IMG/VR virus record: IMGVR_UViG_3300035698_018317
Location: 1 to 64,000 of that record
Direction: 5' to 3' (one strand)
Source of the DNA: a virus
DNA length: 64,000 bases
Within the stretch, counting starts at the first letter, position 1, and each line of letters opens with the position of its first letter. A program made the translations under genes and the position numbers. The notes under the pieces are model-generated. The model did not search any database. It was not told where the DNA came from and worked only from the letters and a program-made list of their open reading frames with translations. Shown here in pieces: positions 2,694-20,365 of this stretch.

Positions 2694-2712
2694 CACGACA
2701 ACATACCAGCAT

Positions 2713-2746
2713 CCCCGACCCCGCAGCAATGCGGGGCGGGGTTGCT
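2713..2746 (+). terminator. rho-independent terminator
   Basis: CCCCGACCCCGC pairs with GCGGGGCGGGG across AGCAAT, with one bulged base, followed by TTGCTTAGTT. Confidence 0.65.
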
Positions 2747-2769
2747 TAGTTACCTTGTACATGATGGGG
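2746..2769 (+). promoter_or_regulatory. TGTACA box, last copy
   Basis: TTAGTTACCTTGTACATGAT, with TGTACA at 2756-2761, matches the form of copy 1 (TTGTACATGAT). It lies 45 bases before the ATG at 2807. Confidence 0.5.
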
Positions 2770-2806
2770 TGTAAGATACACCACCATGAACGAAAGGAAA
2801 CACATC

Positions 2807-3100
2807 ATGGACGCATCGAGAGACGAGAGAGTGATAGCAATCAGAGCCGACAACCTCATCGGTACAGACTCATGCTCATTCATTGATGAATGCTTGAGTG
2901 ATGCTGACATCGTAGAGGAACTAGACAGGCGTAACATAGTGTCACCTGTCGATGCTATCAAGCACCTCATCGACGCACAGCATGGACAGTACGAGCGAGG
3001 GTTGGGTACACGAGCAGGCGACGATGATGACCCCATCCTCATTCAGTTCAACGACTGGGTAGTCAGACGTGACGCTCACCTACTCACACTACCCAGCTAA
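2807..3100 (+). CDS. unknown acidic protein, 97 aa
   Basis: ATG 2807 is preferred over ATG 2786 because CGAAAGGAAACA just upstream is the same leader used at 2158, and both proteins begin ATGGACGCA. The product is rich in Asp, Arg and Ile (DASRDERVIAIRADNLIG) and looks soluble. No family is recognised. It is the last of the GC-rich small genes. Confidence 0.7.
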   Translation: MDASRDERVIAIRADNLIGTDSCSFIDECLSDADIVEELDRRNIVSPVDAIKHLIDAQHGQYERGLGTRAGDDDDPILIQFNDWVVRRDAHLLTLPS

Positions 3101-3112
3101 CCCAGCCCAGCC

Positions 3113-3146
3113 CCCAGCCCTGCCCCGGTCAGGGGGCAGGGCTGGG
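3113..3146 (+). terminator. strong GC hairpin after the small-gene array
   Basis: Arms 3113-3126 and 3133-3146 (CCCAGCCCTGCCCC / GGGGCAGGGCTGGG) are perfectly paired. No T-run follows, so it may act as an RNA-end or pausing structure instead of a classical terminator. Confidence 0.55.
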
Positions 3147-3547
3147 TGACGTAGTGACGTACCATGGTATGTTGCTACCTATATATGTAAAGGTATTGAT
3201 ACGATGCACCCGAAAAAAAACCACGCCACACTAAAACATAATTTAAAATTAAAAAATTATTTTCAAAAAAGTATGGCACCCACCCCCCTACCCCCCCCTC
3301 CCCCACAATAACGCACCTCTGTCTTAGTTTTGGGCCGTGGGGAAATTCGCATACATGTTACATAATTGATAACATATCAACTTTTGGGGTTTTGTATAGG
3401 GGTTAAAAAATATACACCGAATAAGGTCCAAAAAATCGGCGGGGAGTTTTGCCATATCTACATAACTTTTTTGTCAGAAATTGTTGTTTTTCCGTATAGT
3501 GTTGATATAATCCACTAATCAACTGTTAACCCAAAAGGAATAAGATT
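3147..3547. other. gene-free stretch at a composition break
   Basis: About 400 bases with no credible ORF. It has a homopolymer-rich centre (A-runs at 3210-3217 and 3264-3269, C-runs around 3281-3305) and separates GC-rich genes on the left from AT-rich genes on the right. The last 65 bases hold the promoter of the next gene. I see no iterons or clear origin. A module boundary or replication or packaging site is possible but not shown. Confidence 0.5.
3484..3511 (+). promoter_or_regulatory. sigma70-like promoter
   Basis: TTGTTT (3484-3489), a 16-base spacer and TATAAT (3506-3511). It lies 36 bases before the ATG at 3548, which has AAAAGGAAT as its ribosome site. Confidence 0.6.
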
Positions 3548-4959: not shown

Positions 4960-4995
4960 AACTTTATATACTCATTCTAAAATTATTATTTTGGA

Positions 4996-5340
4996 TTAGC
5001 CATTTAATCTATAGACGAGTAGTGCATCTTCCATATTATAAGCTTCATATGAGTTCCATTTGATTGGATATTTATCAGGGTTATTTACGTAATTTATAAT
5101 TTGGAATTTTGAAACATATTTGTTTATTATGGCTTTAATGCCATCTTTAGAGATGGATGTTTTATGACATGCTCTTGTTTCAGGTGTAAAATCCCAACGT
5201 ATTTCAATATCTTTGTATTCGCTATAATCGGTCCATTTTGATGTTGACCGTTTGGAAAGTTTAAGTAATCTCTTAGAGAGGGGTGGGTTTAAGGTTATGG
5301 CTGGTTTTTCCCATCCTAATTTTAGTTTCCTTGTATTCAT
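4996..5340 (-). CDS. unknown protein, 114 aa
   Basis: Starts MNTRKLKLGWEKP at 5340 and lacks the targeting peptide seen in its neighbours. It is basic overall, with aromatic-rich segments (WTDYSEYKDIEIRWDF, YPIKWNSYEAYNM). The C-terminus is rich in Asp, Tyr and Asn. No family is recognised. It diverges from the plus-strand gene at 5407. Confidence 0.6.
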   Translation of the reverse strand: MNTRKLKLGWEKPAITLNPPLSKRLLKLSKRSTSKWTDYSEYKDIEIRWDFTPETRACHKTSISKDGIKAIINKYVSKFQIINYVNNPDKYPIKWNSYEAYNMEDALLVYRLNG

Positions 5341-5406
5341 AACATATTATAAGGAATAATTAGGATTTTGCAAAGACTAATGGATTTATATTTAAAAGGG
5401 AGCACC

Positions 5407-5610
5407 ATGAAATTTGAAGAATTTGTTATTTCTAAAGAAGGCCAACTTAACGAAGGAGATACCTCACAGAGTTATTCCCTTGCAAACAGATTATATATTG
5501 CTTTAGAAGAGGAAGTAGCTCGTTGGGGACCAATGCAACGTTTTGGCCGTGAAATTAGGGCCAATGAAGAACTTTTACAAGCTCTTTCAGCTTGGCGTAA
5601 GATACACTAG
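5407..5610 (+). CDS. small protein with putative capsid-targeting N-terminus
   Basis: 67 residues from ATG 5407, with AAAAGGGAG (5395-5403) as the ribosome site. It starts MKFEEFVISKEGQLNEGD. The F-x-E-F core and a downstream LNE give the same targeting and cleavage pattern as the three genes on the other strand. After the cut about 50 residues would remain, helical with a Trp (SYSLANRLYIALEEE). The leader is longer than in the others. Confidence 0.55.
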   Translation: MKFEEFVISKEGQLNEGDTSQSYSLANRLYIALEEEVARWGPMQRFGREIRANEELLQALSAWRKIH

Positions 5611-5612
5611 GT

Positions 5613-6092
5613 TTATTCACCATGCCATTCATTTATATGGCCACTATATGGAATACATTCTTTAAATTTTTGTATTAATACTGAATCTGGTAATGCTTCG
5701 TTAATACAATCGTTATAGTCTTCCATATTGAGGGATATTTTATAGACATGAGATGAATTACATCCATACCAATTATCTGACATTGACCGCATCGCAAGTT
5801 CTTTGTTATCTACGGATAAACAAATTGCTTCATACCAACTTGTTTTTTTGCCTGTAAATTCATCAAATTTATGGTTTAACTTTAGAGTCCAGAAATCCCA
5901 TCTTAAAGGTTTGCCTTGTTTTTTACAATATTGAGGCAAGTTGGTTGATTCAACGAATTTCAAGAAACACTTTTTTATAAATTGTTTAACTTTGTTTCTA
6001 TCTTTTCTTCTTTCTCTAGACTCTTCAGTGCCTCGTACTACTAACACGGCAAAGGCAATAACGGCTGTTGTGATTATTATTGGTATCAACAT
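5613..6092 (-). CDS. membrane-anchored unknown protein, 159 aa
   Basis: Residues 1-20 (LIPIIITTAVIAFAVLVV) form a signal anchor, followed by a strongly basic segment (RERRKDRNKVKQFIKKC). The remaining part is a soluble domain with several Trp and Cys residues (YCKKQGKPLRWDFWTLKLNH). The basic cluster after the first segment favours a cytoplasmic C-terminal domain. No family is recognised. Confidence 0.6.
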   Translation of the reverse strand: MLIPIIITTAVIAFAVLVVRGTEESRERRKDRNKVKQFIKKCFLKFVESTNLPQYCKKQGKPLRWDFWTLKLNHKFDEFTGKKTSWYEAICLSVDNKELAMRSMSDNWYGCNSSHVYKISLNMEDYNDCINEALPDSVLIQKFKECIPYSGHINEWHGE

Positions 6093-6149
6093 AGTTTTCT
6101 CCTATCACATTCATTATAGGTGTGATATGGGGTCTTGTAAATCAGGTTA

Positions 6150-6178
6150 TTGACAACTGTATAGAATAATGATATACT
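6150..6178 (+). promoter_or_regulatory. sigma70-like promoter
   Basis: TTGACA (6150-6155), exactly 17 bases, then TATACT (6173-6178). It is the best sigma70 match in the window, only 7 bases before the ATG at 6185, so the transcript would be leaderless or start inside the gene. It may also serve the gene from a later start. Confidence 0.6.
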
Positions 6179-6184
6179 GTATTT

Positions 6185-6373
6185 ATGAGTGAATGGAAAG
6201 CGTATCCTGTAGAGTCATTAGGCATTGTTAGAATGATAGCCCATCCTACTACTGGTAGTGATTCGGACCTTTTAGATGATGAGAAAGTCATAGTTGCTTT
6301 GTCTCATCAGCTTGCTGCTGTGACATCAGAATTAAATGAATGTAAAGAATATATTCTTAGTTTTGACACTTAA
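6185..6373 (+). CDS. unknown small protein, 62 aa
   Basis: ATG 6185; acidic, with a helical C-terminal half (DEKVIVALSHQLAAVTSELNECK). It overlaps the convergent lipoprotein gene by 17 bases at their 3' ends. The consensus promoter lies almost on top of the start, and there is no clear ribosome site. No family is recognised. Confidence 0.5.
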   Translation: MSEWKAYPVESLGIVRMIAHPTTGSDSDLLDDEKVIVALSHQLAAVTSELNECKEYILSFDT

Positions 6374-6641
6374 TCCAAGTTTTATTAACAACCCCTTCGA
6401 ACGTATCATCTGTGAACATATATGTTTTTGAGGATAATCCACCTTCATCAATTCTAATTGTGGCTTCCCATTGGCTATCATCTGAGCCTTTATCGAATTT
6501 GATATACCAAGCTACGTCATCAATTTCTTTTAATTGATTTTGTATTGTGCTTGGTTTAGAATTGTTTGAGGGGTCATTTGGTTTAGAGGGGCATCCTAAA
6601 ACAAACATAAGCATAGTCAATAACAGGATTGTAGATTTCAT
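6357..6641 (-). CDS. small predicted lipoprotein, 94 aa
   Basis: N-terminal signal peptide MKSTILLLTMLMFVLGC ends in a lipobox (VLGC) with cysteine at residue 17. The residue after Cys is Pro, so it is not an inner-membrane retention signal by the Asp+2 rule. A Ser/Asn/Pro linker leads to a small domain with Trp residues (DVAWYIKFDKGSDDSQW). It is unrelated in sequence to the lipoprotein family at 22-25 kb. Confidence 0.65.
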   Translation of the reverse strand: MKSTILLLTMLMFVLGCPSKPNDPSNNSKPSTIQNQLKEIDDVAWYIKFDKGSDDSQWEATIRIDEGGLSSKTYMFTDDTFEGVVNKTWIKCQN

Positions 6642-6653
6642 ACTGTTATATAG

Positions 6654-6705
6654 GTTATTAACTTGGTATAATACTGTGGGCGAGATATTTTTTGGAGATG
6701 GGACT
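6654..6705 (+). repeat. dispersed repeat, copy 1
   Basis: GTTATTAACTTGGTATAATACTG followed by GGGCGAGATATTTTTTGG. Copies 2 and 3 lie at 6981 and 7042. The GAGAT..TTTTTT..GATGGGA core also occurs inside the minus-strand gene at 7869-8078 (bases 7955-7975), where it encodes EMFFPDGSR. Confidence 0.6.
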
Positions 6706-6985
6706 CTTATATGTTATGGAATTGAAAGAAAGTATGCGAGAGTGGATGGATGTGGACATGGCTCAACATGAGTTAGCTAAGTGTTTAGGTGTTTTTGGTC
6801 TTCATACGGAAATGCGGCATTATAAAAGTGTTTATTGGTGTAACAATGATTGGGGTAATGAGTTATATGAAATTTTATTAAAATTGGCATCATTAGGTTT
6901 GCTTGAGCATCGTGAAGAGCCGGATATTCAATTTAGGTGGAACCCTAGATGTTCGCCACCTGATGATGACGGGTTGATAAGTTAA
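6698..6985 (+). CDS. unknown protein, 95 aa
   Basis: The frame is open from a TTG at 6692; ATG 6698 follows GGAG directly, and ATG 6716 is also possible, so the start is uncertain. The product is helical with a MAQHELAKCLGVFGLH segment that resembles a small helix-turn-helix-like unit, several Trp, and a C-terminal Pro/Asp tail. No family is recognised. The start region overlaps repeat copy 1, so it may have been assembled from a duplicated fragment. Confidence 0.5.
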   Translation: MGLLYVMELKESMREWMDVDMAQHELAKCLGVFGLHTEMRHYKSVYWCNNDWGNELYEILLKLASLGLLEHREEPDIQFRWNPRCSPPDDDGLIS

Positions 6986-7100
6986 TAACTTGGTATAATA
7001 CTGGGGGCGAGAAATTTTTTGATGGTGGGAGCCGCTGGAAAGTTATTAACTTGATATACTACTGGGAGCGAGATATTTTTTTGCGATGGGAGCCGCTGGG
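6981..7100 (+). repeat. dispersed repeats, copies 2 and 3 in tandem
   Basis: Two head-to-tail copies with a 61-base period (6981-7041 and 7042-7100). Each has GTTA(A/T)TAACTTG(G/A)TAT, CGAGA(A/T)(A/T)TTTTT and GGGAGCCGCTGG. Read in frame, copy 2 encodes a YNTGGEKFFDGGSR-like string close to KYYSEMFFPDGSR of the gene at 7869-8078. They look like decayed gene fragments; TATAAT in copies 1 and 2 also gives a promoter-like look. Confidence 0.55.
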
Positions 7101-7110
7101 TGCCCGGACA

Positions 7111-7162
7111 CGTCTTGGGTAACAATATACAACGTTAGTGTTGTATATTGTTACCCAAGACG
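7111..7162. repeat. perfect 23-bp inverted repeat
   Basis: Arms 7111-7133 and 7140-7162 are exact reverse complements (outer part CGTCTTGGGTAAC) around a 6-base loop GTTAGT. It lies between convergent genes, but neither side has a T-run. It could be an RNA end structure for both strands or a recombination or protein-binding site. Confidence 0.85.
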
Positions 7163-7167
7163 AGATG

Positions 7168-7425
7168 TTAATTCGTTGTGGATAGCACAACTGCGGGGAC
7201 GCCGCCATCTGGGATGTCTTCTTCATCCCAACCGTTCTTCCTGTCTGATTCGGTTATAGGCCACGGGTATGTGTCGCCGCTCCAGCTATTCTCTGCTACA
7301 TACTTAACACCTTGGTAAGCATTATACAGAGGCGAGTAACTATTACCTTCACCATCTTTAGACATCACAACAATACTATCTTGGTCAAGCTTTTGTAGTT
7401 CGGCTATCAATTCAGAAACTTTCAT
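7168..7425 (-). CDS. unknown small soluble protein, 85 aa
   Basis: Starts MKVSELIAELQKLDQDSIVVMSKDGEG. This opening (L...L....V......G..Y.P) is seen in short uncharacterised proteins of bacteria and phages. The rest has YSPLYNAYQGVKYV and an acidic DEEDIPDGGVPAVVL tail. It overlaps the upstream gene by 4 bases (7422-7425), so the two are coupled. No function is known. Confidence 0.65.
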   Translation of the reverse strand: MKVSELIAELQKLDQDSIVVMSKDGEGNSYSPLYNAYQGVKYVAENSWSGDTYPWPITESDRKNGWDEEDIPDGGVPAVVLSTTN

Positions 7426-7805
7426 TTTTTAAGCCCTAACATTCTTAGTATCGTTGGAAGGGCTTCGTGACGTTTAACTATTCTGTTATACCTTCTTTTT
7501 ACTAATCTCGCTTTTTTGGATGTTCTAGTAGTCCATACAGGAGTTTTACTTAATCTTTTAATATTATAAACGGACGATATAGAGATGGCCAATTGCTCTT
7601 CTTTTTTGATATGAGCCTCAAGGATTTTCCCAAGGGATTTCCAAGAATAATAACTGATACGGAAGTTTTCACGTTCTAAGAAACGATTCATTATTACAAG
7701 ACCATCGGAGATTTCTAAGTCTTTTCCCCAAACCATATACTTCTTACGTGAGCCATACTCTTTCTTAAGTGTTATCAGATATTTGTCGCTCTCATTTATT
7801 TGCAT
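7422..7805 (-). CDS. unknown basic protein, 127 aa
   Basis: Starts MQINESDKYLITL. It is strongly basic in the C-terminal half (RTSKKARLVKRRYNRIVKRHEALP), which suggests nucleic-acid binding. There is no recognised domain. It is coupled by ATGA overlap to the next gene. Confidence 0.6.
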   Translation of the reverse strand: MQINESDKYLITLKKEYGSRKKYMVWGKDLEISDGLVIMNRFLERENFRISYYSWKSLGKILEAHIKKEEQLAISISSVYNIKRLSKTPVWTTRTSKKARLVKRRYNRIVKRHEALPTILRMLGLKK

Positions 7806-7868
7806 GTTGTTTTCCTTGGTAAGCGTCTAGTATACCAAAAAATTATGATTTTGTAAAACATCTTTTTA

Positions 7869-8078
7869 TTACGACACTTTGTTGATAGCATCTTTCCACG
7901 ACGCAAACCACAGAGCATCTTCAAACGCTTCTTCCCAACCATTACTGCGGCTCCCATCGGGAAAAAACATCTCGCTATAATACTTATTCCCTTGGACTAA
8001 GACGTACCTAGGATATTCTTCTGGACCTACACGTTTAATTATTTTTTGTTTAGCAAATTCTGGGTTGTATTCATTCAT
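7869..8078 (-). CDS. unknown small protein, paralogue of the next gene upstream
   Basis: 69 residues from the ATG at 8078 (MNEYNPEF). Residues IIKRVGPEEYPRYVLVQGNKYY align closely with TIKRVGPEKFPRYVLAQGGKYY of the neighbour at 8071-8307, and both end near a DALWF motif. They are a tandem duplicated pair. The DNA for EMFFPDGSRS in this gene matches the dispersed repeats at 6654-7100. No function is known. Confidence 0.6.
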   Translation of the reverse strand: MNEYNPEFAKQKIIKRVGPEEYPRYVLVQGNKYYSEMFFPDGSRSNGWEEAFEDALWFASWKDAINKVS

Positions 8079-8307
8079 TTTTGTTTTTCTTAAAGAAGTT
8101 TCGATTAAAGTATGATTCTCCACCAGCTAGCGTTTCAAACCACAATGCGTCTGGAAACGCTCCAAACTCACCATCGGCACAATAATACTTACCTCCTTGA
8201 GCCAAGACGTACCTTGGAAATTTTTCTGGACCTACACGTTTAATAGTGATATCAAAATTATCACGAATCCATTCTTTCCATAATTTCAAACTCTTATATT
8301 CTTTCAT
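8071..8307 (-). CDS. unknown small protein, paralogue pair member
   Basis: 78 residues from the ATG at 8307 (MKEYKSLKLWKEW), with GAAAGGTAATAAA as ribosome site. It has the shared RVGPE-[FY]-PRYVL core at about residues 25-35, a Gly/Tyr stretch and FPDALWF, then a basic Asn/Lys tail. It overlaps the downstream paralogue by 8 bases. It lies just beyond the distal end of CRISPR array 1. Confidence 0.6.
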   Translation of the reverse strand: MKEYKSLKLWKEWIRDNFDITIKRVGPEKFPRYVLAQGGKYYCADGEFGAFPDALWFETLAGGESYFNRNFFKKNKNE

Positions 8308-8333
8308 TTTATTACCTTTCAAAATATCCTAGT

Positions 8334-8973
8334 CAAACACCCCTACGCATGTAGGGAAAACCTCGGACGACGCTGTTTATGGCGGACCCTCCGTAGGGAC
8401 ACCCCTACGCATGTAGGGAAAACGACCTGCTTGAACGCTTGGAAATTTCTGGTACAGGGACACCCCTACGCATGTAGGGAAAACAAATAAAACAATCAGG
8501 AGACAAAGAGTTGGCTAAGGGACACCCCTACGCATGTAGGGAAAACGCTCTGTAAGCTGTCGTAAGGAAGACTCAGTGGGGACACCCCTACGCATGTAGG
8601 GAAAACTTAGAACTTTCTATGTTGCCGTTAGAACCCTCAATGGGGACACCCCTACGCATGTAGGGAACACGCTGCTGATTTGGCAACATTCAGAGCAGAT
8701 GAAGGGACACCCCTACGTTGTAGGGAAAAATTAAACAATCGTTTTTTCAACAGAAAACCCATTGGTACACCCCTACGCATATGTAGGGAAAACATAAAAA
8801 GAGGAGAAATAAAACGAGAACACTGGGTACACCCCTACGAATGTAGGGAACCTATCGTTGCGATACTCAGACGTGGTATTCCTTGGGGACACCCCTACGC
8901 ATGGTAGGGAAAATGGCCAAGTGGTTCACCGTGGCCAACCATGAACCGGGAACACCCTTACATGTAGGGATAC
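8334..8973 (-). CRISPR. CRISPR array 1, 11 repeats / 10 spacers, type I-E like
   Basis: The plus strand shows 28-base units of the form GGGACACCCCTACGCAT plus GTAGGGAAAAC with 32-36-base spacers. Read on the minus strand the unit starts GTTTTCCCTAC and ends GTAGGGGTGTCCC, which has the type I-E layout: a short 5' flank, a CCCTAC/GTAGGG hairpin and a 7-8-base 3' flank that becomes the crRNA handle. Transcription is therefore with the cas genes. Repeats start at 8334, 8396, 8457, 8519, 8579, 8643, 8704, 8764, about 8825, 8886 and 8948. The last five (nearest cas6e) vary in loop length. Only 2 bases separate the last repeat from the cas6e stop, so there is no leader. Confidence 0.95.
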
Positions 8974-8975
8974 AA

Positions 8976-9545
8976 TCATCGGCTTAACAGCAACATTCCA
9001 AATCCAAAAGATTTACCTTTGCCTATACCTTTTTTAATGGTTTGAGAGAAATCTTCTGTAGAAGTTATTTTTAACTTACCTTTGAAAACAACTTTGTTAT
9101 GTGTTTGTTTACCTATTTTGTCTTTGAATTGTATTGATGATGGTTGTCCTATATTAAGACCACATATAGTAAACCCATGCTGTTTACCTTTTCTCACAAT
9201 CCAACGCACTAAATCTTTTTCTTCAGTAATAGCTCTATATTTTTTATTTTGTTTAACAACAGGATTTGCTGTTAATACAAAATTAAATATTTTTCCGTCC
9301 TTTACACCGACATCAAATTGTTTAACATCTGCGTGGAACTTTTTATCTGACCAATTAGGTTTTGTTTCAGACTGTACCAAAACAGAGTCATCACAAACAA
9401 CATATAGGACATTATGGTTCTGTCTAGCCATTCCTTTTTCATCGGGGAATCCAGACATTACGGTTCTATGTATTTGATAATTTGATGCAATAAGTCTATA
9501 ACATTCTGGGGTTGGTTTAAATTTTAATTTTGATAAGAACATCAT
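8976..9545 (-). CDS. cas6e: Cas6e (Cse3, CasE) crRNA-processing endoribonuclease
   Basis: 189 residues, near the usual size of about 200. Cas6e cuts CRISPR transcripts at the 3' base of the repeat hairpin and stays bound to the crRNA 3' end in Cascade. Residues 24-34 (QIHRTVMSGFP) match the family's catalytic-His segment (H-R...FP). The C-terminal GKGKSFGFGMLLL (about 175-187) is the glycine-rich RNA-binding loop. It starts with an ATGATG that overlaps the cas5 stop and is last in the operon, running straight into array 1. Confidence 0.93.
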   Translation of the reverse strand: MMFLSKLKFKPTPECYRLIASNYQIHRTVMSGFPDEKGMARQNHNVLYVVCDDSVLVQSETKPNWSDKKFHADVKQFDVGVKDGKIFNFVLTANPVVKQNKKYRAITEEKDLVRWIVRKGKQHGFTICGLNIGQPSSIQFKDKIGKQTHNKVVFKGKLKITSTEDFSQTIKKGIGKGKSFGFGMLLLSR

Positions 9546-10162
9546 TCTCCTTTACCAAAGTCAACATGAACAGATTGGATGTTTCTAGCCCCATATACTT
9601 TATCTGATATAGGAACATCCTCAACTCGTTCGCTGTCTATTGTTTTTTCATTAGTTTCTACAATAAATCTAACAACATTTTTTGCAGGTAGTTGTTTAAG
9701 AGCATCAAATGGGTTTTCATCATTTGTGACTTTAGAGATAATTGGTGTCGTAATAGGACATGCCAACCTTCCCATATAAAGATGATAACATGGATGGTTT
9801 AAGCCTTCAGTTATTTCATCCACGAGTATGTCATCGCCTGTCAATGCGACAGTGAATTGACTATCGGAAGAGAGGTAATATCTCCATGTTTGAACACTTT
9901 GTTTCCCTTTTCCAATCAATTTAACGAAATTACCAGCATTTTGGTAGTCGCATTCTTTTACACCTTGATTATCAACTCGCACCGCCATTCGAAGGCTAAG
10001 AAGTTCCTTAGCCTTCGAATGGTTAGAACGGATTCCCATAGCGGATTTAATTAAGCCTAGTATTCCGCTATAAGTTGGTTCATTGCGAGTTTCTCGATAA
10101 ACATGCTTGCTGCTATCGCCCCAACTCTGCATACCTTTAAGTGTTAATATAATGGTTTTCAT
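9542..10162 (-). CDS. cas5e: Cas5e (CasD), Cascade subunit binding the crRNA 5' handle
   Basis: 206 residues from the ATG at 10162, chosen because AAGGGA at the end of cas7 serves as ribosome site and the protein then starts with the family's MKTIILTLKGMQSWG. R-x-T...PTYSGILGLIKSAMGI (about 22-45) is the conserved Cas5 N-terminal region. Cas5 caps the 5' handle of the crRNA and contacts Cse1 in Cascade. A perfect 16-bp inverted repeat (9985-10022) lies inside the coding region. The gene starts 4 bases after the cas7 stop. Confidence 0.93.
   Translation of the reverse strand: MKTIILTLKGMQSWGDSSKHVYRETRNEPTYSGILGLIKSAMGIRSNHSKAKELLSLRMAVRVDNQGVKECDYQNAGNFVKLIGKGKQSVQTWRYYLSSDSQFTVALTGDDILVDEITEGLNHPCYHLYMGRLACPITTPIISKVTNDENPFDALKQLPAKNVVRFIVETNEKTIDSERVEDVPISDKVYGARNIQSVHVDFGKGE
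9985..10022. repeat. 16-bp perfect inverted repeat inside cas5e
   Basis: Arms 9985-10000 (CCATTCGAAGGCTAAG) and 10007-10022 are exact reverse complements around AAGTTC. It codes for part of HSKAKELLSLRM just after the conserved N-terminal motif. A stem this long in coding DNA would form a stable hairpin in the mRNA before the cas6e gene. Confidence 0.85.
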
Positions 10163-10166
10163 TTTT

Positions 10167-11267
10167 TTATCCCTTAAGAGTATCCACAACTTTTTCGCAT
10201 ACTTCTTGTAAGGACATCTTGCCGTCAATATCCTTTAAGGAGCATACAAACGTGTGAGAAGGTTTATTTCCAAAAGTTTCTTCTACTGCTTGTCGATATT
10301 CGAAGAAGTTACGGATAGCCACATCAGTAAGGCTTTCTTTATCTTTATGATTGGGAACTACTGGAGTCTCAAAAGCGTTCACATCGCTATTTGGTTGAGT
10401 ATCCAAAATGTCCACAACCACAAGGGCAGGCACAACATTATTGGCAAATGTATTAGCTTTTCCTTTTGGTACGTCCATAGCGAATGCTGAAATGAATTCA
10501 GCACATGCCTCTGCTGTAAGATTGGCGTCATCAAGATTTTCCATAAGTTTATCAACGCAAATTGAAGCATATTGATAATAGCAGGAAGAATTAAACGACA
10601 ATGAGCCAAGGTGACCAGCCCCAGTGGTATCCTCTTCCCCAGAGTCAATCTTAAGGTCATCTATTGCTGTAAAATAATCAAATTCTTCAGCAAGGGCATT
10701 CACACCCATTGCATGGGCGACCTGTACAGCGGCATAAACTTCATGGGTTTTGACGGTAGCTTGCATTCTTCCGAACATGGCAACATCGACAGTGATGCCA
10801 ATAGGTTTCCCATGAAGTATTTTCTTGATATTCTTGATATCAAAATCGTCTTCCTTCATTGCCACAACAACTCTGTCAATAATGCTATCAATTTCTTTAT
10901 CAGACGTAAAAATCAAACAGGATGTAAGGTTTTCTTTTCCTTTTTTACTATTTCTCTTCTTGTCGAAAACTGTGTTAACGATAGCATTGGCAATATTAAC
11001 ACGAGTTTTTTCATCTTCTACAAAATCCAACTTGTTGATGATTCGTTTAAGAATCATCTGTGTTCGAATTCCGTGATAAGCATGAACTTTTTCAGCGTCC
11101 ATGTTCTCATGCCAGAATTCACGAACCATTCTCTTAAGACATTGGCTAGAAATTCTGGAGCGGCGGGAGCCACCAAATACACAATCTTTTTGTTCTCCAC
11201 TATCATCCGCATTAGGTCTAGACACGGGGTAGTTCTTCAATAATCCAATCTTTACAAATTTTGACAT
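10167..11267 (-). CDS. cas7e: Cas7e (Cse4, CasC), Cascade backbone
   Basis: 366 residues, as in E. coli CasC (363). Six copies normally line the crRNA and form the backbone of the surveillance complex. The N-terminal part (IGLLKNYPVSRPNADDSG, then FGGSRRSRISSQCLKRM at about 31-47) carries the hallmark GG-x-RxRISSQ-x-KR segment. The middle has GHLGSLSFNSSCYYQY, also typical. The ATG at 11267 follows AGAAGGAATT. It lies between cse2 and cas5e in the standard order. Confidence 0.95.
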   Translation of the reverse strand: MSKFVKIGLLKNYPVSRPNADDSGEQKDCVFGGSRRSRISSQCLKRMVREFWHENMDAEKVHAYHGIRTQMILKRIINKLDFVEDEKTRVNIANAIVNTVFDKKRNSKKGKENLTSCLIFTSDKEIDSIIDRVVVAMKEDDFDIKNIKKILHGKPIGITVDVAMFGRMQATVKTHEVYAAVQVAHAMGVNALAEEFDYFTAIDDLKIDSGEEDTTGAGHLGSLSFNSSCYYQYASICVDKLMENLDDANLTAEACAEFISAFAMDVPKGKANTFANNVVPALVVVDILDTQPNSDVNAFETPVVPNHKDKESLTDVAIRNFFEYRQAVEETFGNKPSHTFVCSLKDIDGKMSLQEVCEKVVDTLKG

Positions 11268-11284
11268 TTTTTTAATTCCTTCTG

Positions 11285-11815
11285 TTATGCCATTTCTGGC
11301 GAGTTAATTTTTTCTTTTTTTGATTCTACTTTTTTTACTGGTTGTTCCCAAAAATCTTTTGAGAATTTGTTTTGAACCCACATATCATCTTCTTTCCACC
11401 ATGTTAATCCTTGTAACAAATCAGCCCAATTAATCGGAATTCTTTTAGCTGCTGATAATCGTATCAGTGTTCCAAGATGTTGGAATACTGGGATTTCTTC
11501 TGTAGCATCTAGGAAAGAAAGAAATTTCCTATTCATTCCTTCTTCGCTATATTCCTTAATTAATGGTTTAATACTTTTACCAAATGATTTTGTGTCTGTA
11601 TGACGTGGGTTGATTGCGAATAAGCGTGCTGTATGAATGAAACAGAGATTACTCCAAGATTCATTTTGTGTTGGAAGGTATGGGTAAATATACCTACCAA
11701 TTTGAAACAGCTTAGTTGGGTTACTTTTCTTAAATTTTGACAATATAGCTGGGCCTCTTTTGCTTTTTGTCAATTTAACTAAATGGTCTATAAAATTGTC
11801 TATTCTTTTATTCAT
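11285..11815 (-). CDS. cse2: Cse2 (CasB, Cas11e), Cascade small subunit
   Basis: 176 residues, slightly longer than E. coli Cse2 (160). The family is weakly conserved. The supports are position between cse1 and cas7, the all-helical basic composition (FIDHLVKLTKSKRGPAIL), and a C-terminal LIRLSAAKRIPINWADLLQGL, like the conserved region near the end of Cse2 proteins. Two Cse2 copies stabilise the R-loop by holding the displaced strand. The start overlaps the cse1 stop by 8 bases. Confidence 0.88.
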   Translation of the reverse strand: MNKRIDNFIDHLVKLTKSKRGPAILSKFKKSNPTKLFQIGRYIYPYLPTQNESWSNLCFIHTARLFAINPRHTDTKSFGKSIKPLIKEYSEEGMNRKFLSFLDATEEIPVFQHLGTLIRLSAAKRIPINWADLLQGLTWWKEDDMWVQNKFSKDFWEQPVKKVESKKEKINSPEMA

Positions 11816-13232
11816 TTTTCTTTCCTTTATTAAACAGGATGATTTCGAAACTTTTTAAATTTCCTTTTTGGTACAAGTATTCTAACACATTTTTTCGGCT
11901 CCCACTCATTAACTTTCTTGTTTCGTTCATGAATAATTTGTGGGCCACTTCTCTTATTTTTTTCACAAAAGATATTTTTGCTTCTACTGTCTTTTGAGAC
12001 ATGAATTCTAGAAATAAGGTGTTAGCTTCGCTCCAGAATAAAACTTTAACTTGTTCTGGACTTTCTAAAGTAAATTGTTTATAGAGACGATAAACAAAAC
12101 TTCTCAGGTGAACTCCTACACGATTAGCTTCTTCAACAACTTGACATATAATTTCCTGAATATCATCATTTTTGATACAGTCGGTTGAAAGAGGTAGTAC
12201 ATCTTCTGAAATCATTTTATATTTGGTTAATTTATCATCCATATAAAATCCATATGATTGATATCCAAAATCAATCATATCATCGAAGATGTCTAAGTTT
12301 TCATTGTTTGCAAAAACATACTCACCGTCTGCAACTCCAGCCTTGACAGAAATCACAAAGGATTTGAAATTATTCCATAAATGTTCAGCATGGGAAAAAC
12401 GGAGAGGTTTATACCCATCTTTGGTGTTTTTGTATACTACGAATGGGTCACGTAATCCTTCAATCGGTTCATTACCCTTATCCCAATACATATAGGAAAA
12501 AGTTCCATTGTCATTAGGAAGTAATTTGATGCTTCTGGAGCAACGAGTCAAATATTGCATATATCCACGGACTTTGTTATCATTTAATACCGGGGACTCA
12601 TCCTCCCAAACGGGACTATCTTCTTCTGTCTGCGGAATGTTAAGATTTTCATCTAAAGGATGGGCATTAAGCATAAATGTTTGGAATAAATTCTTTCCAG
12701 TAAGAAGAACGGGCATTCCACGTTGGCTAGACGCATGAAAAGTAGAACGATGTTCGCCAAGTCCTTTGCCAGTATTTAAGGCAAAAGATTGAAGTGTCAT
12801 CAATTGAATAGCTACATCTTCAGCTTGAACAGACGTAGTTTTGATAAAATTTCTTGATGACCATGATGCATCGGCATCTGTTAAAAAATTAAGTCTATTA
12901 ACAGATTCCTTTTTCTTTGTTTGAAGTTTGGGGTCTTGTAGGAAAGGCTTTTTGGTGTCTAGTAAATCAAAGCAAAAAGAGTTCAAATAATTGGTGGTTG
13001 ATTTATCAAAACAACCTTTTTCCCAAAGTGCTTTCCACTCTTCCTCATTGTTCAATCCGTAAGCTCTATAAAGAACGGGCAGGAACATCCTAGTGAAGGC
13101 CAAATTTTGAAGAGGCTGAGAAAATGCCGTAGATTCAATTTCGTGAGCATGTTCAAAGACGGAGATAAGGTTATGGCTTCCTTGTAACGTTGAAATCCAA
13201 TTTTCAGTTTTTAAGTCGTATGATGTCGTCAT
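11808..13232 (-). CDS. cse1: Cse1 (CasA, Cas8e), Cascade large subunit
   Basis: 474 residues from the ATG at 13232, picked because AAGAAAGGAAAT precedes it and the next in-frame methionines upstream fall on the predicted transcription start. Cse1 reads the PAM, helps open the target DNA and recruits Cas3. Family signs are the N-terminal NWIS...ISVFEHAHEI, the LAFTRMFLPVLYRAYG helix (about 42-57) and a SPVWEDESP acidic-Trp loop near residue 210. It is first gene of the Cascade operon, with its own promoter at 13266-13294. Confidence 0.93.
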   Translation of the reverse strand: MTTSYDLKTENWISTLQGSHNLISVFEHAHEIESTAFSQPLQNLAFTRMFLPVLYRAYGLNNEEEWKALWEKGCFDKSTTNYLNSFCFDLLDTKKPFLQDPKLQTKKKESVNRLNFLTDADASWSSRNFIKTTSVQAEDVAIQLMTLQSFALNTGKGLGEHRSTFHASSQRGMPVLLTGKNLFQTFMLNAHPLDENLNIPQTEEDSPVWEDESPVLNDNKVRGYMQYLTRCSRSIKLLPNDNGTFSYMYWDKGNEPIEGLRDPFVVYKNTKDGYKPLRFSHAEHLWNNFKSFVISVKAGVADGEYVFANNENLDIFDDMIDFGYQSYGFYMDDKLTKYKMISEDVLPLSTDCIKNDDIQEIICQVVEEANRVGVHLRSFVYRLYKQFTLESPEQVKVLFWSEANTLFLEFMSQKTVEAKISFVKKIREVAHKLFMNETRKLMSGSRKNVLEYLYQKGNLKSFEIILFNKGKKNE

Positions 13233-13265
13233 GTTATTTCCTTTCTTAATTATCATCATGTCAAG

Positions 13266-13294
13266 AATATACAGTATGATAAAATAAAAAGCAA
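13266..13294 (-). promoter_or_regulatory. sigma70-like promoter of the Cascade operon
   Basis: On the minus strand TTGCTT (13294-13289), 17 bases, then TATATT (13271-13266). The predicted start of transcription is about 13259, giving a leader of about 27 bases before the cse1 ATG at 13232. It lies between array 2 and cse1, so Cascade and array 1 can be transcribed apart from cas3 and array 2. Confidence 0.65.
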
Positions 13295-13341
13295 GAGAAA
13301 TCCCATATTGTTTTTATTTGAAAAACATATTTTTTAGAAAC

Positions 13342-13740
13342 TTAACACCCCTACGAATGTAGGGAAAACAAAAAAAAGAAGAAGGAATTTCTCCCACGAT
13401 AAGGGACACCCCTACGTTTGTAGGGAAAACTTCTCTAAAAATTTACGAGCATCAGCAACTAGCGGGACACCCCTACGCATGTAGGGAAAACCAGCCGCAG
13501 AGAGATTCCAGAGCGTTCAGTTAGGGGCACCCCTACGCATGTAGGGAAAACGCTAGGTCAGTTCTTCGGGGCCACGTCGCACGAAAGGAACACCCCTACG
13601 TATGTAGGGAAAACCTTTCTGAGTTGCAGATTCGGTCGTGACAACGTTAGGGACACCCCTACGCATGTAGGGAAAACAAGCAATAGATAAAGCATTGAGC
13701 GAAGCTCAATGAGGGACACCCCTACGCATGTAGGGAAAAC
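13342..13740 (-). CRISPR. CRISPR array 2, 7 repeats / 6 spacers
   Basis: Repeats start at 13342, 13403, 13464, 13524, 13587, 13650 and 13713, each 28 bases, with spacers of 32-35 bases. The unit is the same as in array 1. The leftmost repeat has lost the GGG end (TTAACACCCC), as expected for the distal repeat of a minus-strand array. Loop variants GAAT, GTTT and GTAT replace GCAT, while the CCCTAC/GTAGGG stem is intact in all seven. It lies 33 bases after the cas3 stop; that AT-rich gap is too short for a normal leader. Confidence 0.95.
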
Positions 13741-13773
13741 TATAACATTTAGTAGTAGAGTAATATGTTGTGT

Positions 13774-16368
13774 TTAGTATTTTTTTAGTCTTTTGAGTTG
13801 TAGTCCATTTTCTAAATCATATTTGGCTTCGAAATTTGCTCGTTTTAAATAATTATTTTCATCTAGAATCAAAAGTCCGCAATATCTAAGTGGTGTGCGT
13901 TCCCACTCTTCTCGTATTGTTTTTTGGAAATAATTAAAGTAAGGGTTTCCAATAATTGGACATTGACTTTTTTGTAATAGTTCTATTTCTTTTTTATTTG
14001 GTATTTTTGTTAAATCGGGTGCAAGTATTTTCCTTTTTGGGTCTAAGTACCACCTTTTATCCCCTTGTTTATAGAATAAAATGACCACTTTCATTGCTGA
14101 AACAATATTTCTAGTGGATAGTTTATTCTCTTTTTCTTGTTTCTTAGAAGGATTTATGTTTAAATCATTATCTTCTTTTAAAACTATACTATTTGCTAAG
14201 TTTTCTTCTTTAACTTCTTTTTTTTCTAATTTGTCATGAGCTTTATTATAAGTTTCTTGTTCTTTTTTTGTAAGTTTTTCAAATGGTTTATACACATATT
14301 CAATTAATTCTTCAACCATATCTGGGATTTTTAATTGGGTCTTATTATGCAGTATATCATAAGTTCTTTGCATAGTATAAGAATCATAGACATAATTTTC
14401 TAGCACACCATCTTCATCGAATTCATAAACGACCCCTATTCTTGGAGAACGAAGCCCTAATGGTCGATTTATGATAAAGCGATGATTCCTGCCGCCTCGT
14501 TGTAACAATAAGTCAATTGGGCATAGAAATGTTAACATATAATCGAAATCTACATTAAGACTTTGTTCTATTATCTGAGTTCCTACTAAAATGGATATGA
14601 AAGGTCTTTTAGTACCATCTTTTCCATAATCACTAAGAACTTCTTGTGTTAATTTATCTTTATCTTCATCTCTAAATCGTGCATGAATTAATTTACGATG
14701 AATATCTGGGACCATTTTAGCTAGTAATTTATTTATTCTTTGTGCTTGTTTCACTGTGTTACAGACAATAGCTAGACATCCTCCATTTTTTATTTTTTTC
14801 AGAACATGTCCCAATAATTCATAATATTGTTGAACTACAATACCATTTTTTATTTTAAAATTAGGGTTTATATAAAAATGGTCTAATTTAATTGTTTTAG
14901 TTTTTTCAGGAGGTAATTTTTTAACAATTGTTTTATTTCCAGAAACTACACATACCCTAGGGTATGGAACGTCTTCTTTTAATTCGCCACCATAAGCTTC
15001 AACAAATTCTTTTTTCATTTGTTTTGTTAAGGTGGCAGATAGCATAATGACTGAACATCTTAGATTTTTAAGTTCTTTTAACAATCTTTTAATTAAGACT
15101 TGCATATAAGTGTCATAAGCGTGTATTTCATCAAAAATTACTACTTTATTTACTAGTCCATATAAACGGAGGAAGAAGTATTTTACAGGGACGACACCAA
15201 ACAGAGCTTGGTCTATTGTGCTATCACCAAACTGTGAGAAAAACTTACGCTTTCCACTATTGAACCATTCAAATGGGGAGACAGTATCTTTTGTGTCTAT
15301 TTTTTTATACCATTCATGAGCATTAGCATTGCCATGTCCTATTTGGAAATTTGCCTCTCCATCTGTTATATTTTCTAAATAGTTAACTGTTCTATCTACC
15401 ATGGCATTTGTAGTTGCTTGAGTTGGCATAAGAATATGCATCCCACGATGTCCAACATTTGTCATTAACTTATCTGAGGCATAGAAGCCCACTTCTGTCT
15501 TTCCCTGCCCCGTACTCATTTCGACAATCAAAAGAGATGGTTCTTTTAACTTATCTGCAATTTCTATAATTGTTTTTTGTGATTCATATGGAGTTATATT
15601 CGGGAACATTTCCTCAAAGCTTAAATCTTTAATAGGACATAAATCCATTTTGATATTATCTAATGCAAATTTAGCCTTTTGAGGAAGGTCTTTTACATAT
15701 TCTTGCCATGTTGTTTCTTCCCCTGCAAAGGGGAAGAAATTTTCATCGGAAGCAATCCAATCGGAGAGAGAAAGTAATCCTGAAAAGAAGAAATAAAAGT
15801 GTTGAGGCAACTTTGCTTTCTTCCATATTTTTGACGGAATTGGGAACACCTTTTGAATCACATCTATTGCTAATTCTTGTTGTTCTTTCCACTTATCATC
15901 TTTTAAACATTTAAAGAAAAATCTTCCATCTTGTTTTCTAGGTTTTGGGAGAACTGAGTATCGCCCATGATGACCACCAAGAAGGGAACAAAGTGTATCA
16001 GGCAATTTTCCATTCATTATTTGTTTAGAAAATACTTCATGTCGGAAATGTGGTTTGTTCTTTCCATCTAGACCAAAAAAGTTATACCCATCATCTTGTA
16101 ACGGCTTATAAGCTTCAGATTGAATAGCAAAATTTGGTGTTATTTTACCAATATCATGATATGGAACTATTCCAACTACAAATTGTATTGCTTCATCTTT
16201 AGTTAATCCCAATGAATTAGCCATATATTCTAATTCTTCATCAGGCAGTATCCTAAGAAGAATTTCTTTAGCAATAAAACCCGAATCTAACATATGAAAT
16301 AAAGCAGGATGTGTTTTCTTTGTTGCTCTGTCAAATTTACCCCAAATTTTATAATCTATTTTATTCAT
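13774..16368 (-). CDS. cas3: Cas3 helicase-nuclease
   Basis: 864 residues from the ATG at 16368, which overlaps the upstream stop as ATGA; a longer frame from 16449 is less likely. Cas3 is recruited by Cascade and degrades target DNA. The N-terminal HD nuclease shows H25 (LFHMLDSG), HD at 71-72 (YHDIGK), GGHHG at 131-135 and SDWIASD near 202. The helicase follows with Walker A (STGQGKT, about 285-291), box II DEIH, a SAT motif (MLSATLT) and TQIIEQSLNVDFD...QRGGRNHR (motifs V/VI). All catalytic positions look intact. Its operon has three unknown genes upstream and array 2 downstream. Confidence 0.95.
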   Translation of the reverse strand: MNKIDYKIWGKFDRATKKTHPALFHMLDSGFIAKEILLRILPDEELEYMANSLGLTKDEAIQFVVGIVPYHDIGKITPNFAIQSEAYKPLQDDGYNFFGLDGKNKPHFRHEVFSKQIMNGKLPDTLCSLLGGHHGRYSVLPKPRKQDGRFFFKCLKDDKWKEQQELAIDVIQKVFPIPSKIWKKAKLPQHFYFFFSGLLSLSDWIASDENFFPFAGEETTWQEYVKDLPQKAKFALDNIKMDLCPIKDLSFEEMFPNITPYESQKTIIEIADKLKEPSLLIVEMSTGQGKTEVGFYASDKLMTNVGHRGMHILMPTQATTNAMVDRTVNYLENITDGEANFQIGHGNANAHEWYKKIDTKDTVSPFEWFNSGKRKFFSQFGDSTIDQALFGVVPVKYFFLRLYGLVNKVVIFDEIHAYDTYMQVLIKRLLKELKNLRCSVIMLSATLTKQMKKEFVEAYGGELKEDVPYPRVCVVSGNKTIVKKLPPEKTKTIKLDHFYINPNFKIKNGIVVQQYYELLGHVLKKIKNGGCLAIVCNTVKQAQRINKLLAKMVPDIHRKLIHARFRDEDKDKLTQEVLSDYGKDGTKRPFISILVGTQIIEQSLNVDFDYMLTFLCPIDLLLQRGGRNHRFIINRPLGLRSPRIGVVYEFDEDGVLENYVYDSYTMQRTYDILHNKTQLKIPDMVEELIEYVYKPFEKLTKKEQETYNKAHDKLEKKEVKEENLANSIVLKEDNDLNINPSKKQEKENKLSTRNIVSAMKVVILFYKQGDKRWYLDPKRKILAPDLTKIPNKKEIELLQKSQCPIIGNPYFNYFQKTIREEWERTPLRYCGLLILDENNYLKRANFEAKYDLENGLQLKRLKKY

Positions 16369-16685
16369 CACCCACCAATGCCCATGTTGTTCTTGTAAGG
16401 CCATATGATACGGCCAGATTGTAAGATATCCCACACCATTTTTTTCCATACTTTTCTTATATGGATATGAAATTCTTCAGATGTTACTAATTTTTTTTCA
16501 ATAAGTTGGAATCCCAATTCAGAATCATCAACACCCATTCTATTAAGAGCTTCCCACAAATATCCTACTATTTTATCAACTGTTCTATATTTCTTTCTAA
16601 TATCTTTATCATGCATTGCGACTTCTGCATGTTCGAATATTAGTTCGGCTGCTTCGCACACACGTTCTGATAATTCTGTACACAT
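16368..16685 (-). CDS. unknown protein coupled to cas3, paralogue of next gene
   Basis: 105 residues starting MCTELSERVCEAAELIFEH. Its stop overlaps the cas3 start (ATGA), which implies coupled translation. It is a tandem paralogue of the gene at 16691-16981: both start MCTELSERV.EA.ELVFEH and share KVWK.MVW.I near the end. Both are helical and soluble. I recognise no family. Constant linkage to cas3 would make it a candidate regulator or accessory of the CRISPR system; that is inference. Confidence 0.65.
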   Translation of the reverse strand: MCTELSERVCEAAELIFEHAEVAMHDKDIRKKYRTVDKIVGYLWEALNRMGVDDSELGFQLIEKKLVTSEEFHIHIRKVWKKMVWDILQSGRIIWPYKNNMGIGG

Positions 16686-16690
16686 TTATT

Positions 16691-16981
16691 TTACCTTTTA
16701 ATAGCGCCAGTTCGGATAATTGTCCACACCATTTGTTTCCACACAGTCTTTAAAGATTTTGCTCTATCACGGAAGTGTATCTCTGTCACAAGATTATCAT
16801 TAATGAGTTGCATCCCAAATTCGGTATCGTCTATACCAATGTTTAGAAGAACATCCCACAAATATTCTTCTACTTTAAGCTTTGTTTTGTAATAATGATT
16901 TGCATTATGTAAGGCGGCATCTCTATGTTCAAACACTAACTCAGTTGCTTCAAATACACGTTCTGATAATTCTGTACACAT
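16691..16981 (-). CDS. unknown protein, paralogue of the cas3-coupled gene
   Basis: 96 residues starting MCTELSERVFEATELVFEH, with GG(T/A)AAA-type ribosome site. It shares the N-terminal helix, the YLW..L...G.DD.E.G.QLI.. centre and the C-terminal MVW.I of its neighbour. The 5-base gap to that gene and their similarity mark a tandem duplication. No function is known. Confidence 0.65.
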   Translation of the reverse strand: MCTELSERVFEATELVFEHRDAALHNANHYYKTKLKVEEYLWDVLLNIGIDDTEFGMQLINDNLVTEIHFRDRAKSLKTVWKQMVWTIIRTGAIKR

Positions 16982-16991
16982 TATTTTTCCT

Positions 16992-17672
16992 TTACCAGCG
17001 TCCTCTTCTTTGGAGGGCGTTTAATCCACCACCACATCCACCTTGAGGAAATTGTAATCCATTTCTATTTTGGTTAGGTCGGTTATTATAGTTTAAGGCG
17101 TTAAGTCTTGCTCTTTCTACCTTCTGAGCGGCCAGTTTCTTTTCTGCTCTTAATTTTCTAGCCGCAGATTTTTCTAATTTTGCTTTTTTAGCAAGTTCTT
17201 CCCGAATGTATTTCCCATTTTTTATTTTAGATATTTTGGACCCTAGGGTGAACCACGTATTTTTTATAATAGGCAGATTATCTTTTAAACAAGACATGAC
17301 GAACTTCCCATTAGGAAGTTTACCAACCCTAATGGTATTATTTCCAGCTTTACAAGCGGTTACTTTTGCATCAGGGTTTAGATATAATTTATTCCTATGT
17401 CTTCTAATTGGGTATTTCTTAGTATCTACTTCCCCCATACTTGTTCGGGGCATACTTCTCAGTCTCATATCTGGTATAACGTATAATTTAAAATTGTTGA
17501 ATTGATAATATGCTCCACTTGACCTTCTTCTGGTGTCATCGGGTGCGCTGAACAGAAAACGTAGGATACAGGCTGATATGTCTAGAACACAGGCCAAGAA
17601 TATTATAAACCTGTTTTTTGCGTACCAGCTACCTATACCGTCCCATATATTCTCGTGTGGGAGTTTCATATT
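16992..17672 (-). CDS. membrane protein with basic coiled tail, 226 aa
   Basis: Starts at ATG 17672 (MKLPHENIW), set by AAGGAAGAGATAAT. Residues about 18-40 (FIIFLACVLDISACILRFLF) span the membrane once. The centre is a soluble part (KLYVIPDMRLRSM). Near residues 155-190 there is an alanine/lysine/arginine-rich helix (KKAKLEKSAARKLRAEKKLAA), then an Asn/Gly/Gln-rich end. First gene of the minus-strand operon that leads to cas3. No family is recognised. Confidence 0.6.
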   Translation of the reverse strand, partial: NMKLPHENIWDGIGSWYAKNRFIIFLACVLDISACILRFLFSAPDDTRRRSSGAYYQFNNFKLYVIPDMRLRSMPRTSMGEVDTKKYPIRRHRNKLYLNPDAKVTACKAGNNTIRVGKLPNGKFVMSCLKDNLPIIKNTWFTLGSKISKIKNGKYIREELAKKAKLEKSAARKLRAEKKLAAQKVERARLNALNYNNRPNQNRNGLQFPQGGCGGGLNALQRRGRW

Positions 17673-19202: not shown

Positions 19203-19901
19203 TTACCTATCATTTTGCATATACTCCCTTGGTACATTCTCGGTTAACCAGACACCGTTTGTAGAAAGGTAGAATACGAATCCATCTGAAGACATTTTAC
19301 CAGAATCCACAGAAATAACAATAGGTTTTCCCCTTCTTTTCCCGACTTGTATTGCTGTGTCCTTATCTACAGACAGATGCACATGATGTCGTTTCATCTT
19401 TTTTAACCCATCATGTTGTATAATATCCCAATTTTTTTGTACGGTGCCATGATATAGCGTATCAGGAGGGGTTTGTGCCTCATAATTCAGATTTATTTTG
19501 ACACTATGGCCTTGAGACGCCCGAATTTGAGATTTATCTTCATTGAATTCGAATCGCTTTTTGTTGTTATGTTCTACAATTTCTTCCAGTTCATCCATAG
19601 AGATGTGGCAACCGGACAAAACTGCTCCTACATCTGCCCAACCTTGTTCATCGAGGGTGAGGTTGATGGTTTCTGGTTTATGCCTAAGAACTAGGCTAAG
19701 AAATTTACTTTGATTTACCATCTGCATCCCTCTTAACGGTGTCAATCCGCCACAGCAATCAATTCTTGGGTCTGGGTTACGGGAGTATTCTTCATTTTCA
19801 CTCCAGCCGCAGCTAAAGCAACCCCAAGGGCCGTGTATCACGCCGACACCTACATCGACCACATCTTGTTCACATTTACAATTACATTCTGGACATTTCA
19901 T
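19203..19901 (-). CDS. kptA: KptA/Tpt1 RNA 2'-phosphotransferase with N-terminal zinc ribbon
   Basis: 232 residues. From about residue 63 the KptA domain is clear: SKFLSLVLRHKPETINLTLDEQGWADV, then LYHGT, a KMKRHHVHLSVD stretch, VGKRRGKPIVISVD, and DGFVFYLSTNGVWLTENVP. It holds the conserved R-H, H-G-T and H-x-H-L-S positions. KptA moves a 2'-phosphate from RNA to NAD+. An extra N-terminus (CPECNC...CFSCGW, residues 3-33) looks like a zinc ribbon, and a further CC follows near 49; standard KptA lacks it. It is 38 bases from a Nudix gene on the same strand. Confidence 0.88.
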   Translation of the reverse strand: MKCPECNCKCEQDVVDVGVGVIHGPWGCFSCGWSENEEYSRNPDPRIDCCGGLTPLRGMQMVNQSKFLSLVLRHKPETINLTLDEQGWADVGAVLSGCHISMDELEEIVEHNNKKRFEFNEDKSQIRASQGHSVKINLNYEAQTPPDTLYHGTVQKNWDIIQHDGLKKMKRHHVHLSVDKDTAIQVGKRRGKPIVISVDSGKMSSDGFVFYLSTNGVWLTENVPREYMQNDR

Positions 19902-19939: not shown

Positions 19940-20365
19940 TTATTTAAGATATTTTTTGATAAGGTCACTGGAATTTTTTAGAAGAGCGGTTAAACCGAAG
20001 TGTTTTGGAGAAACTTGTTTTAATTCTGCGAGTGTTGCCCACTTAGCTTTATCTGTTTCGAAGTTTAGTTTTGGTTTGAATTCATTTACTAAGCCGATAA
20101 AGTTATGGAATTTAAGGTGTTTATCTTCATAAACATAGGCTGGGAAGAGTTCCATATCGCCTTTAAAGCCTGTTTCTTCCCTAAATTCACGTAGGGCTTC
20201 CTTTTTCATATCACTTGATTCAGCTTTCCCGCCGAAGGATGCCCATGTTCCCGGTTCAGGTCCGTCTTGCCCTCTGAGTCCAACAAGGATTTTTCCCTCC
20301 GGTGAAATAGCTAGTATTCCGGCCCCGGTGATACGATTTATATATTTTTTGAATTCAAGTAGCAC
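19940..20365 (-). CDS. Nudix hydrolase, 141 aa
   Basis: A complete Nudix box lies at about residues 46-68 (GGKAESSDMKKEALREFREETGF), matching G-x5-E-x7-R-E-x2-E-E-x-G. Upstream GAGILAISPEGKILVGLRG forms the usual first strands. The family cleaves nucleoside diphosphates linked to other groups. Next to KptA, an ADP-ribose-type or capped-RNA substrate is an attractive guess but not shown. The size is normal for a single-domain member. Confidence 0.88.
   Translation of the reverse strand: MLLEFKKYINRITGAGILAISPEGKILVGLRGQDGPEPGTWASFGGKAESSDMKKEALREFREETGFKGDMELFPAYVYEDKHLKFHNFIGLVNEFKPKLNFETDKAKWATLAELKQVSPKHFGLTALLKNSSDLIKKYLK

Follow-up and report, generated by a model that had tools for sequence, protein, structure and literature searches.

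The first 64,000 nucleotides (nt) of the 225,284-base IMG/VR virus record IMGVR_UViG_3300035698_018317, referred to here as the window, harbor a complete interference system of CRISPR (clustered regularly interspaced short palindromic repeats) subtype I-E. It is probably a member of an I-E lineage that is carried by phages and was formerly capable of spacer acquisition; in this copy, cas1, cas2 and the leader would since have been lost. That these parts were lost, as opposed to never having been there, is the simplest reading of the sequences. The locus lies on the minus strand (8337–16449) in the order cas3, array 2, cse1, cse2, cas7e, cas5e, cas6e and array 1. Its features, with coordinates in the window, are:

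8337–8913, minus strand: CRISPR array 1, ten repeats with consensus GTTTTCCCTACATGCGTAGGGGTGTCCC and spacers of 32–36 nt (repeat analysis)
about 8948–8975, minus strand: dead repeat TTGTATCCCTACATGTAAGGGTGTTCCC with a broken hairpin, beginning directly at the cas6e stop codon
8976–9545, minus strand: cas6e, 189 amino acids (aa), endonuclease for the CRISPR RNA precursor (pre-crRNA); PF08798 3.6e-36, TIGR01907 above cut-off, PDB 2y8w/1wj9
9542–10162, minus strand: cas5e, ATG at about 10162; PF09704 3.9e-31, TIGR01868
10167–11267, minus strand: cas7e, 366 aa, Cascade backbone; PF09344 2.7e-88, TIGR01869
11285–11815, minus strand: cse2, 176 aa, Cascade small subunit; PF09485 9.2e-15, TIGR02548
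11808–13259 (open reading frame, ORF; probable ATG at 13232), minus strand: cse1, 483 aa, Cascade large subunit; PF09481 1.2e-51, TIGR02547, PDB 4an8
13342–13740, minus strand: CRISPR array 2 between cas3 and cse1, seven repeats and six spacers of 32–35 nt
13774–16449 (ORF, 891 aa), minus strand: cas3, HD nuclease and superfamily 2 helicase; PF18019, PF22590, TIGR01587, PDB 4q2c 7.4e-82

All six Cas proteins exceed the curated Pfam/NCBIfam cut-offs for type I-E or for the Cas3 core, and the signature pair of the subtype, Cse1 and Cse2, is present together with Cas7e, Cas5e and Cas6e, each of the five passing type I-E models of Pfam and NCBIfam. For Cas3, TIGR01587 and TIGR01596 pass, while the full-length NCBIfam equivalog NF007248 stays below its cut-off. 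Alignment with bacterial Cas3 proteins revealed invariant catalytic residues, the HD domain retaining H52, D55, H98, D99, H137, H160, H161 and D230 and the helicase the motifs GQGKT, DEIH, SAT and QRGGR; the catalytic-type His26 of Cas6e is likewise invariant when compared with bacterial proteins. A preliminary description of this DNA had reported six complete cas genes with intact motifs as well as two arrays with 16 spacers, and both statements are borne out by the family matches, the invariant active-site residues and the spacer count (10 + 6). The inner starts of cas3, cse1 and cas5e within the mechanically called ORFs were judged from ribosome-binding sites and from a related system on another virus contig, L121 (see below). 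Thus, cas3 probably begins at ATG 16368 (864 aa), the point where the L121 Cas3 begins, and for cas5e, whose ORF (9542–10228) opens at TTG 10228, the ATG at about 10162 was taken from the same comparison. The cas5e gene overlaps the start of cas6e and adjoins the stop of cas7e.

No match to Cas1 (PF01867), Cas2 (PF09707, PF09827) or Cas4 (PF01930) was found in the whole 225,284-base record, and a tblastn search of the record with the Cas1 of L121 as query also returned nothing (best E 3.9). The same Cas1 and Cas2 models do find targets in related virus contigs, both of them in L121. Hence, the earlier statement that the 64 kb contain no cas1 or cas2 can be extended to the rest of the phage record. 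The record itself carries genes for a gp23 major capsid protein, a terminase, a prohead protease and a baseplate wedge protein, and it represents a huge myovirus-type phage. The I-E locus is sited within this phage genome, with the capsid, terminase and protease genes on the same record. In total, 109 proteins are common to the record and phage LR756511, and relatives of the baseplate protein occur in 301 candidate stretches of IMG/VR, the best 80 of them at 56–92% identity.

Both arrays are in operon orientation, with 28-nt repeats that contain a stem of 6–7 bp and with spacers of 32–36 nt that are less regular than usual for type I-E. In array 1, the repeats proximal to cas6e have decayed in loop and flanks, while the most distal ones are perfect; decay is greatest on the side at which new repeats would be inserted by a functional leader. 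There is no room for a leader at either array, as array 1 abuts the cas6e stop and array 2 starts about 35 nt past the cas3 stop, and no AT-rich leader was found before the first repeat of either. The 17 usable repeats contain 26 edits, all of them outside the 12 stem bases, in the loop, the 5' flank or the handle. An even spread of edits across the 28 positions would produce such a pattern with P ~5e-7, or 2e-5 if both end repeats are omitted; the copies within an array are not fully independent of each other, and the dead repeat at cas6e was left out of the count. Repeats were anchored on the stem sequence for this comparison, and their even spacing shows that none was skipped. Those variant repeats that were subjected to folding retain the stem, again except for the dead one. 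Since the stem bases are untouched while the remainder drifts, continued selection on the processing of CRISPR RNAs (crRNAs) appears to be the simplest reading.

Two further observations concern the arrays. Spacer 1 of array 2 (13678–13712) contains a perfect 8-bp hairpin, CATTGAGCTTCGCTCAATG, ahead of a T-rich stretch, and constitutes a candidate terminator within the array. Other terminator-like matches inside the arrays were discarded, being largely the repeat hairpins themselves.

A clue to the history of the locus is provided by the sister system of a related phage; like the one-sided decay of the repeats, it goes beyond the preliminary description. A profile scan of IMG/VR yielded six contigs with Cas7e, the best being L121 (IMGVR_UViG_3300035698_022762, also G039; 80 kb), with an I-E system at 5244–14471; the other five are more distant. 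L121 is the top match for all six Cas proteins of the window (Cas3 585 bits, versus 317 for the next), with identities of 38–41% for Cas3 and 44–46% for Cas7. In the trees inferred for Cas3 (84 rows) and for Cas7 (95 rows), the two form a fully supported clade (100 and 100/100) whose stem measures 1.3 changes per site, and no bacterial row falls inside it among about 90 sampled. Pair-alignment scans for a third member of this group found none, and a search with the single Cas7 likewise gave no close relatives. The gp23 capsid protein of the L121 contig is 77% identical to that of the window phage, and 46 non-cas proteins, the majority encoded in a colinear structural block, are common to both. 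Hence, the two systems belong to phages of a single clade.

The L121 system shares with the window the gene order cas3-cse1-cse2-cas7-cas5-cas6e as well as similar repeat flanks and handle; the changes between the two repeat stems are paired, and both repeats retain the GTGTYCC handle. Yet, cas6e is followed in L121 by cas1, cas2, a leader and the array, whereas in the window a decayed repeat stands at the cas6e stop codon. The cas1 of L121 is catalytically intact (E141, H208 and D221 kept), cas2e is present, and the leader of about 120 nt precedes an array of 16 repeats with near-uniform spacers of 31–32 nt and one 18-nt exception. This single array decays only at its far end, and one of its spacers is tandemly duplicated. 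In contrast, the window has two arrays with decayed repeats, one of them inserted between cas3 and cse1, and the standard deviation of its spacer lengths is 1.2, versus 0.35 in L121 without the 18-nt exception. The two loci also differ in their location: that of the window phage lies to the left of the tail module, that of L121 just after the capsid gene. Beside the L121 system lie a TnsA-N/DUF4379 endonuclease-like ORF and a TnpB-like (OrfB_IS605) ORF.

Taken together, the array abutting cas6e, the irregular spacers and the decay at the cas6e side are easier to reconcile with a loss of cas1, cas2 and the leader than with a still growing system. In more specific terms, a deletion may have taken cas1, cas2 and the leader and set the array against cas6e, so that within one huge-phage clade a self-updating I-E system turned into a frozen, interference-only arsenal, in which selection then kept the hairpins and the effector, not acquisition; we give this scenario roughly an even chance. 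In the mechanism proposed for the present system, the operon with its embedded arrays would be transcribed from the minus strand, and Cas6e would cleave every repeat on the 3' side of the conserved CCCUAC/GUAGGG hairpin. The crRNAs, equipped with a GUGUCCC-type handle, would then join Cse1, Cse2, Cas7e and Cas5e, after which Cas3 could shred matching DNA during infection. The 16 guides would form a fixed set, possibly directed against rival phages, satellites or plasmids.

Several observations weigh against this overall explanation. The record is linear, with neither end repeats nor Ns, so that cas1-cas2 could sit in a missing part, and it is colinear with only about 220 kb (364–584 kb) of the 595-kb phage LR756511. 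It may thus be a fragment of a larger phage genome, and the absence of cas1 and cas2 from the whole phage is probable rather than proven. The case for loss is, moreover, built on a single sister system. Neither a credible Cas7e nor a Cas1 was found in the 39 related records tested, LR756511 included, most of which are short fragments, so that the window phage and that of L121 may also have gained I-E separately from an unsampled source. Weak Cas7 matches in two related phages (L093 and L094) were attributed to chance (15 bits, with stops inside). Finally, the spacers did not reveal any target. None is self-targeting, the longest exact run in the phage's own genome being 15 nt in a T-rich stretch, and comparison with 50,697 phage and 72,556 plasmid records at E up to 10 gave partial matches at chance level only. 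Nothing beyond 16-nt runs was detected in LR756511, other large related contigs and the fetched loci, and two 20-nt spacer seeds (from two spacers, exact) scanned through IMG/VR gave 0 matches. The preliminary description had interpreted the locus as a fixed weapon against rival phages, satellites or the host; its core, a phage I-E interference set with no adaptation genes in the record and no leader room, stands, while the spacer search yielded no targets for such a weapon.

Two separate gains would imply that both phages took I-E from an unsampled bacterial lineage and that the donor of the window system was already devoid of cas1-cas2. The different genome positions of the two loci and the lack of I-E in LR756511 and other relatives speak for such an independent capture. 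We nevertheless consider it unlikely, if the most serious of the alternatives, in view of the fully supported pair on a long stem in both trees, without a bacterial member among the approximately 90 sampled, and of the shared handle and the paired nature of the stem differences. A little less likely still is an adaptation in trans, by host Cas1-Cas2 or by unassembled phage cas1-cas2, in which case the arrays would not be frozen. Borrowing of host I-E adaptation has been reported for plasmid type IV-A systems (PMC11656645), and the phage record may be incomplete. In addition, 13 of the 16 window spacers start with T or C, as do 15/15 in L121 when a 27-nt repeat is assumed there, which is possibly a trace of past acquisition guided by a protospacer-adjacent motif. 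However, neither array offers room for a leader, array 1 is most decayed precisely where new repeats would be copied in, and the spacer lengths are irregular in comparison with L121. The repeat pattern of the window, searched as an exact pattern with two free bases, also found 0 matches in 84,980 bacterial and archaeal species genomes and in IMG/VR.

Alternatively, the locus could be a dying relic that is out of use, with array decay and the loss of cas1-cas2 as steps toward complete loss. Degenerate repeats with insertions and deletions, one dead repeat, irregular spacers and the lack of spacer matches would all be expected of such a relic. Six open reading frames, retained active-site residues and stems untouched in 17/17 remaining repeats argue in the opposite direction and render this explanation improbable. 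An assembly chimera, in which a bacterial I-E locus was joined to phage sequence, would be conceivable for a virus contig that was most likely assembled from a metagenome. Yet, the GC content of the locus matches the phage, the third-position GC of the Cas genes is close to the phage's own, and the closest relative also comes from a phage contig, one that belongs to the same clade. We therefore regard a chimera as very improbable. Loss of cas1, cas2 and leader from a phage-borne I-E lineage remains the favored explanation.

The surroundings of the locus contain several additional features. Upstream of cas3, two small paralogous ORFs (16368–16685 and 16691–16981, minus strand) are 48% identical to each other, and the stop of the former overlaps the probable cas3 start. 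Neither has a family match or a counterpart in L121. It is uncertain whether they are part of the CRISPR system, in which they could act as regulators or accessory proteins. Toward the right edge of the region given in the preliminary description (17672), about 1.2 kb of ORFs without Cas match follow. Directly downstream of array 1, small ORFs on the minus strand are tandemly duplicated (7869–8322; 53% identical over 47 aa). A promoter scan returned no more sites than in shuffled sequences. Further to the left, a 60-nt element, AAGTTATTAACTTGGTATAATACTGGGGGCGAG..., occurs in three copies with a TATAAT box at 6652–7099 and possibly represents a repeated phage promoter. The region 1–3300 has a GC content of 48%, versus about 36% elsewhere, and contains tiny ORFs, between which a ATTAAGTTATTAATTAGCATGTACATAA element recurs along with strong GC hairpins; it has no match in the phage collection. 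On the other side, a gene for a Tpt1/KptA RNA 2'-phosphotransferase lies beside a match to PADLOC PDC-S07, a Nudix-like sequence (19203–19901 and 19940–20365).

A lack of acquisition genes is not unusual among phages. According to portions of three publications, most phage CRISPR systems do without them (PMC7162821, Al-Shayeb et al. 2020), Cas1/2/4 are lacking in 250 of 299 phage systems (PMC12676247), and jumbo phages behave likewise (PMC13037316). The surprise that the preliminary description expressed at the missing cas1-cas2 was thus overstated. Like the window locus, these systems combine effectors and short arrays with the absence of Cas1, Cas2 and Cas4, but the subtypes named in these portions are mainly I-C, I-F, II-C and type V, whereas the window encodes type I-E. 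An I-E example of the window lineage, or a sister pair with and without adaptation genes, is not described there; I-E phage systems may, however, be among those covered by Al-Shayeb et al. 2022 (Cell), which limits any claim of novelty. The type I-F system of the lytic phage ICP1 (Seed et al. 2013, cited in PMC7162821) resembles that of the window in its complete interference genes. However, spacer acquisition and a known target, PLE, have been described for ICP1 (PMC6452262), whereas the window has no acquisition genes and no target was found. With bacterial type I-E systems of the E. coli / Thermus type, the window shares all effector families, the repeat hairpin and the range of spacer sizes, but it differs in protein sequence (18–38% identity), in the absence of adaptation genes and in its two leaderless arrays. 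Another I-E effector set, consisting of cas3, cse1, cas7, cas5 and a cas6e-like gene, is located at 4967–12450 of the 202,737-bp IMG/VR record IMGVR_UViG_3300034069_002177 (L126), a putative phage. This set groups with systems from Actinomycetota, and cas1, cas2 and an array were not found in the 202-kb record.

The system described here is a well-preserved and ordinary-in-kind member of the class of phage CRISPR systems without adaptation genes. As this class is already known, what is new is the comparison with a sister phage system that retains adaptation. To our knowledge, it has yet to be settled whether phages take up nothing but effector modules or acquire entire systems and later lose adaptation. 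The window system widens the range of I-E effectors, with about 20–35% identity to those of bacteria, and with both states of the same I-E lineage held by one phage clade, the loss of adaptation can be studied.

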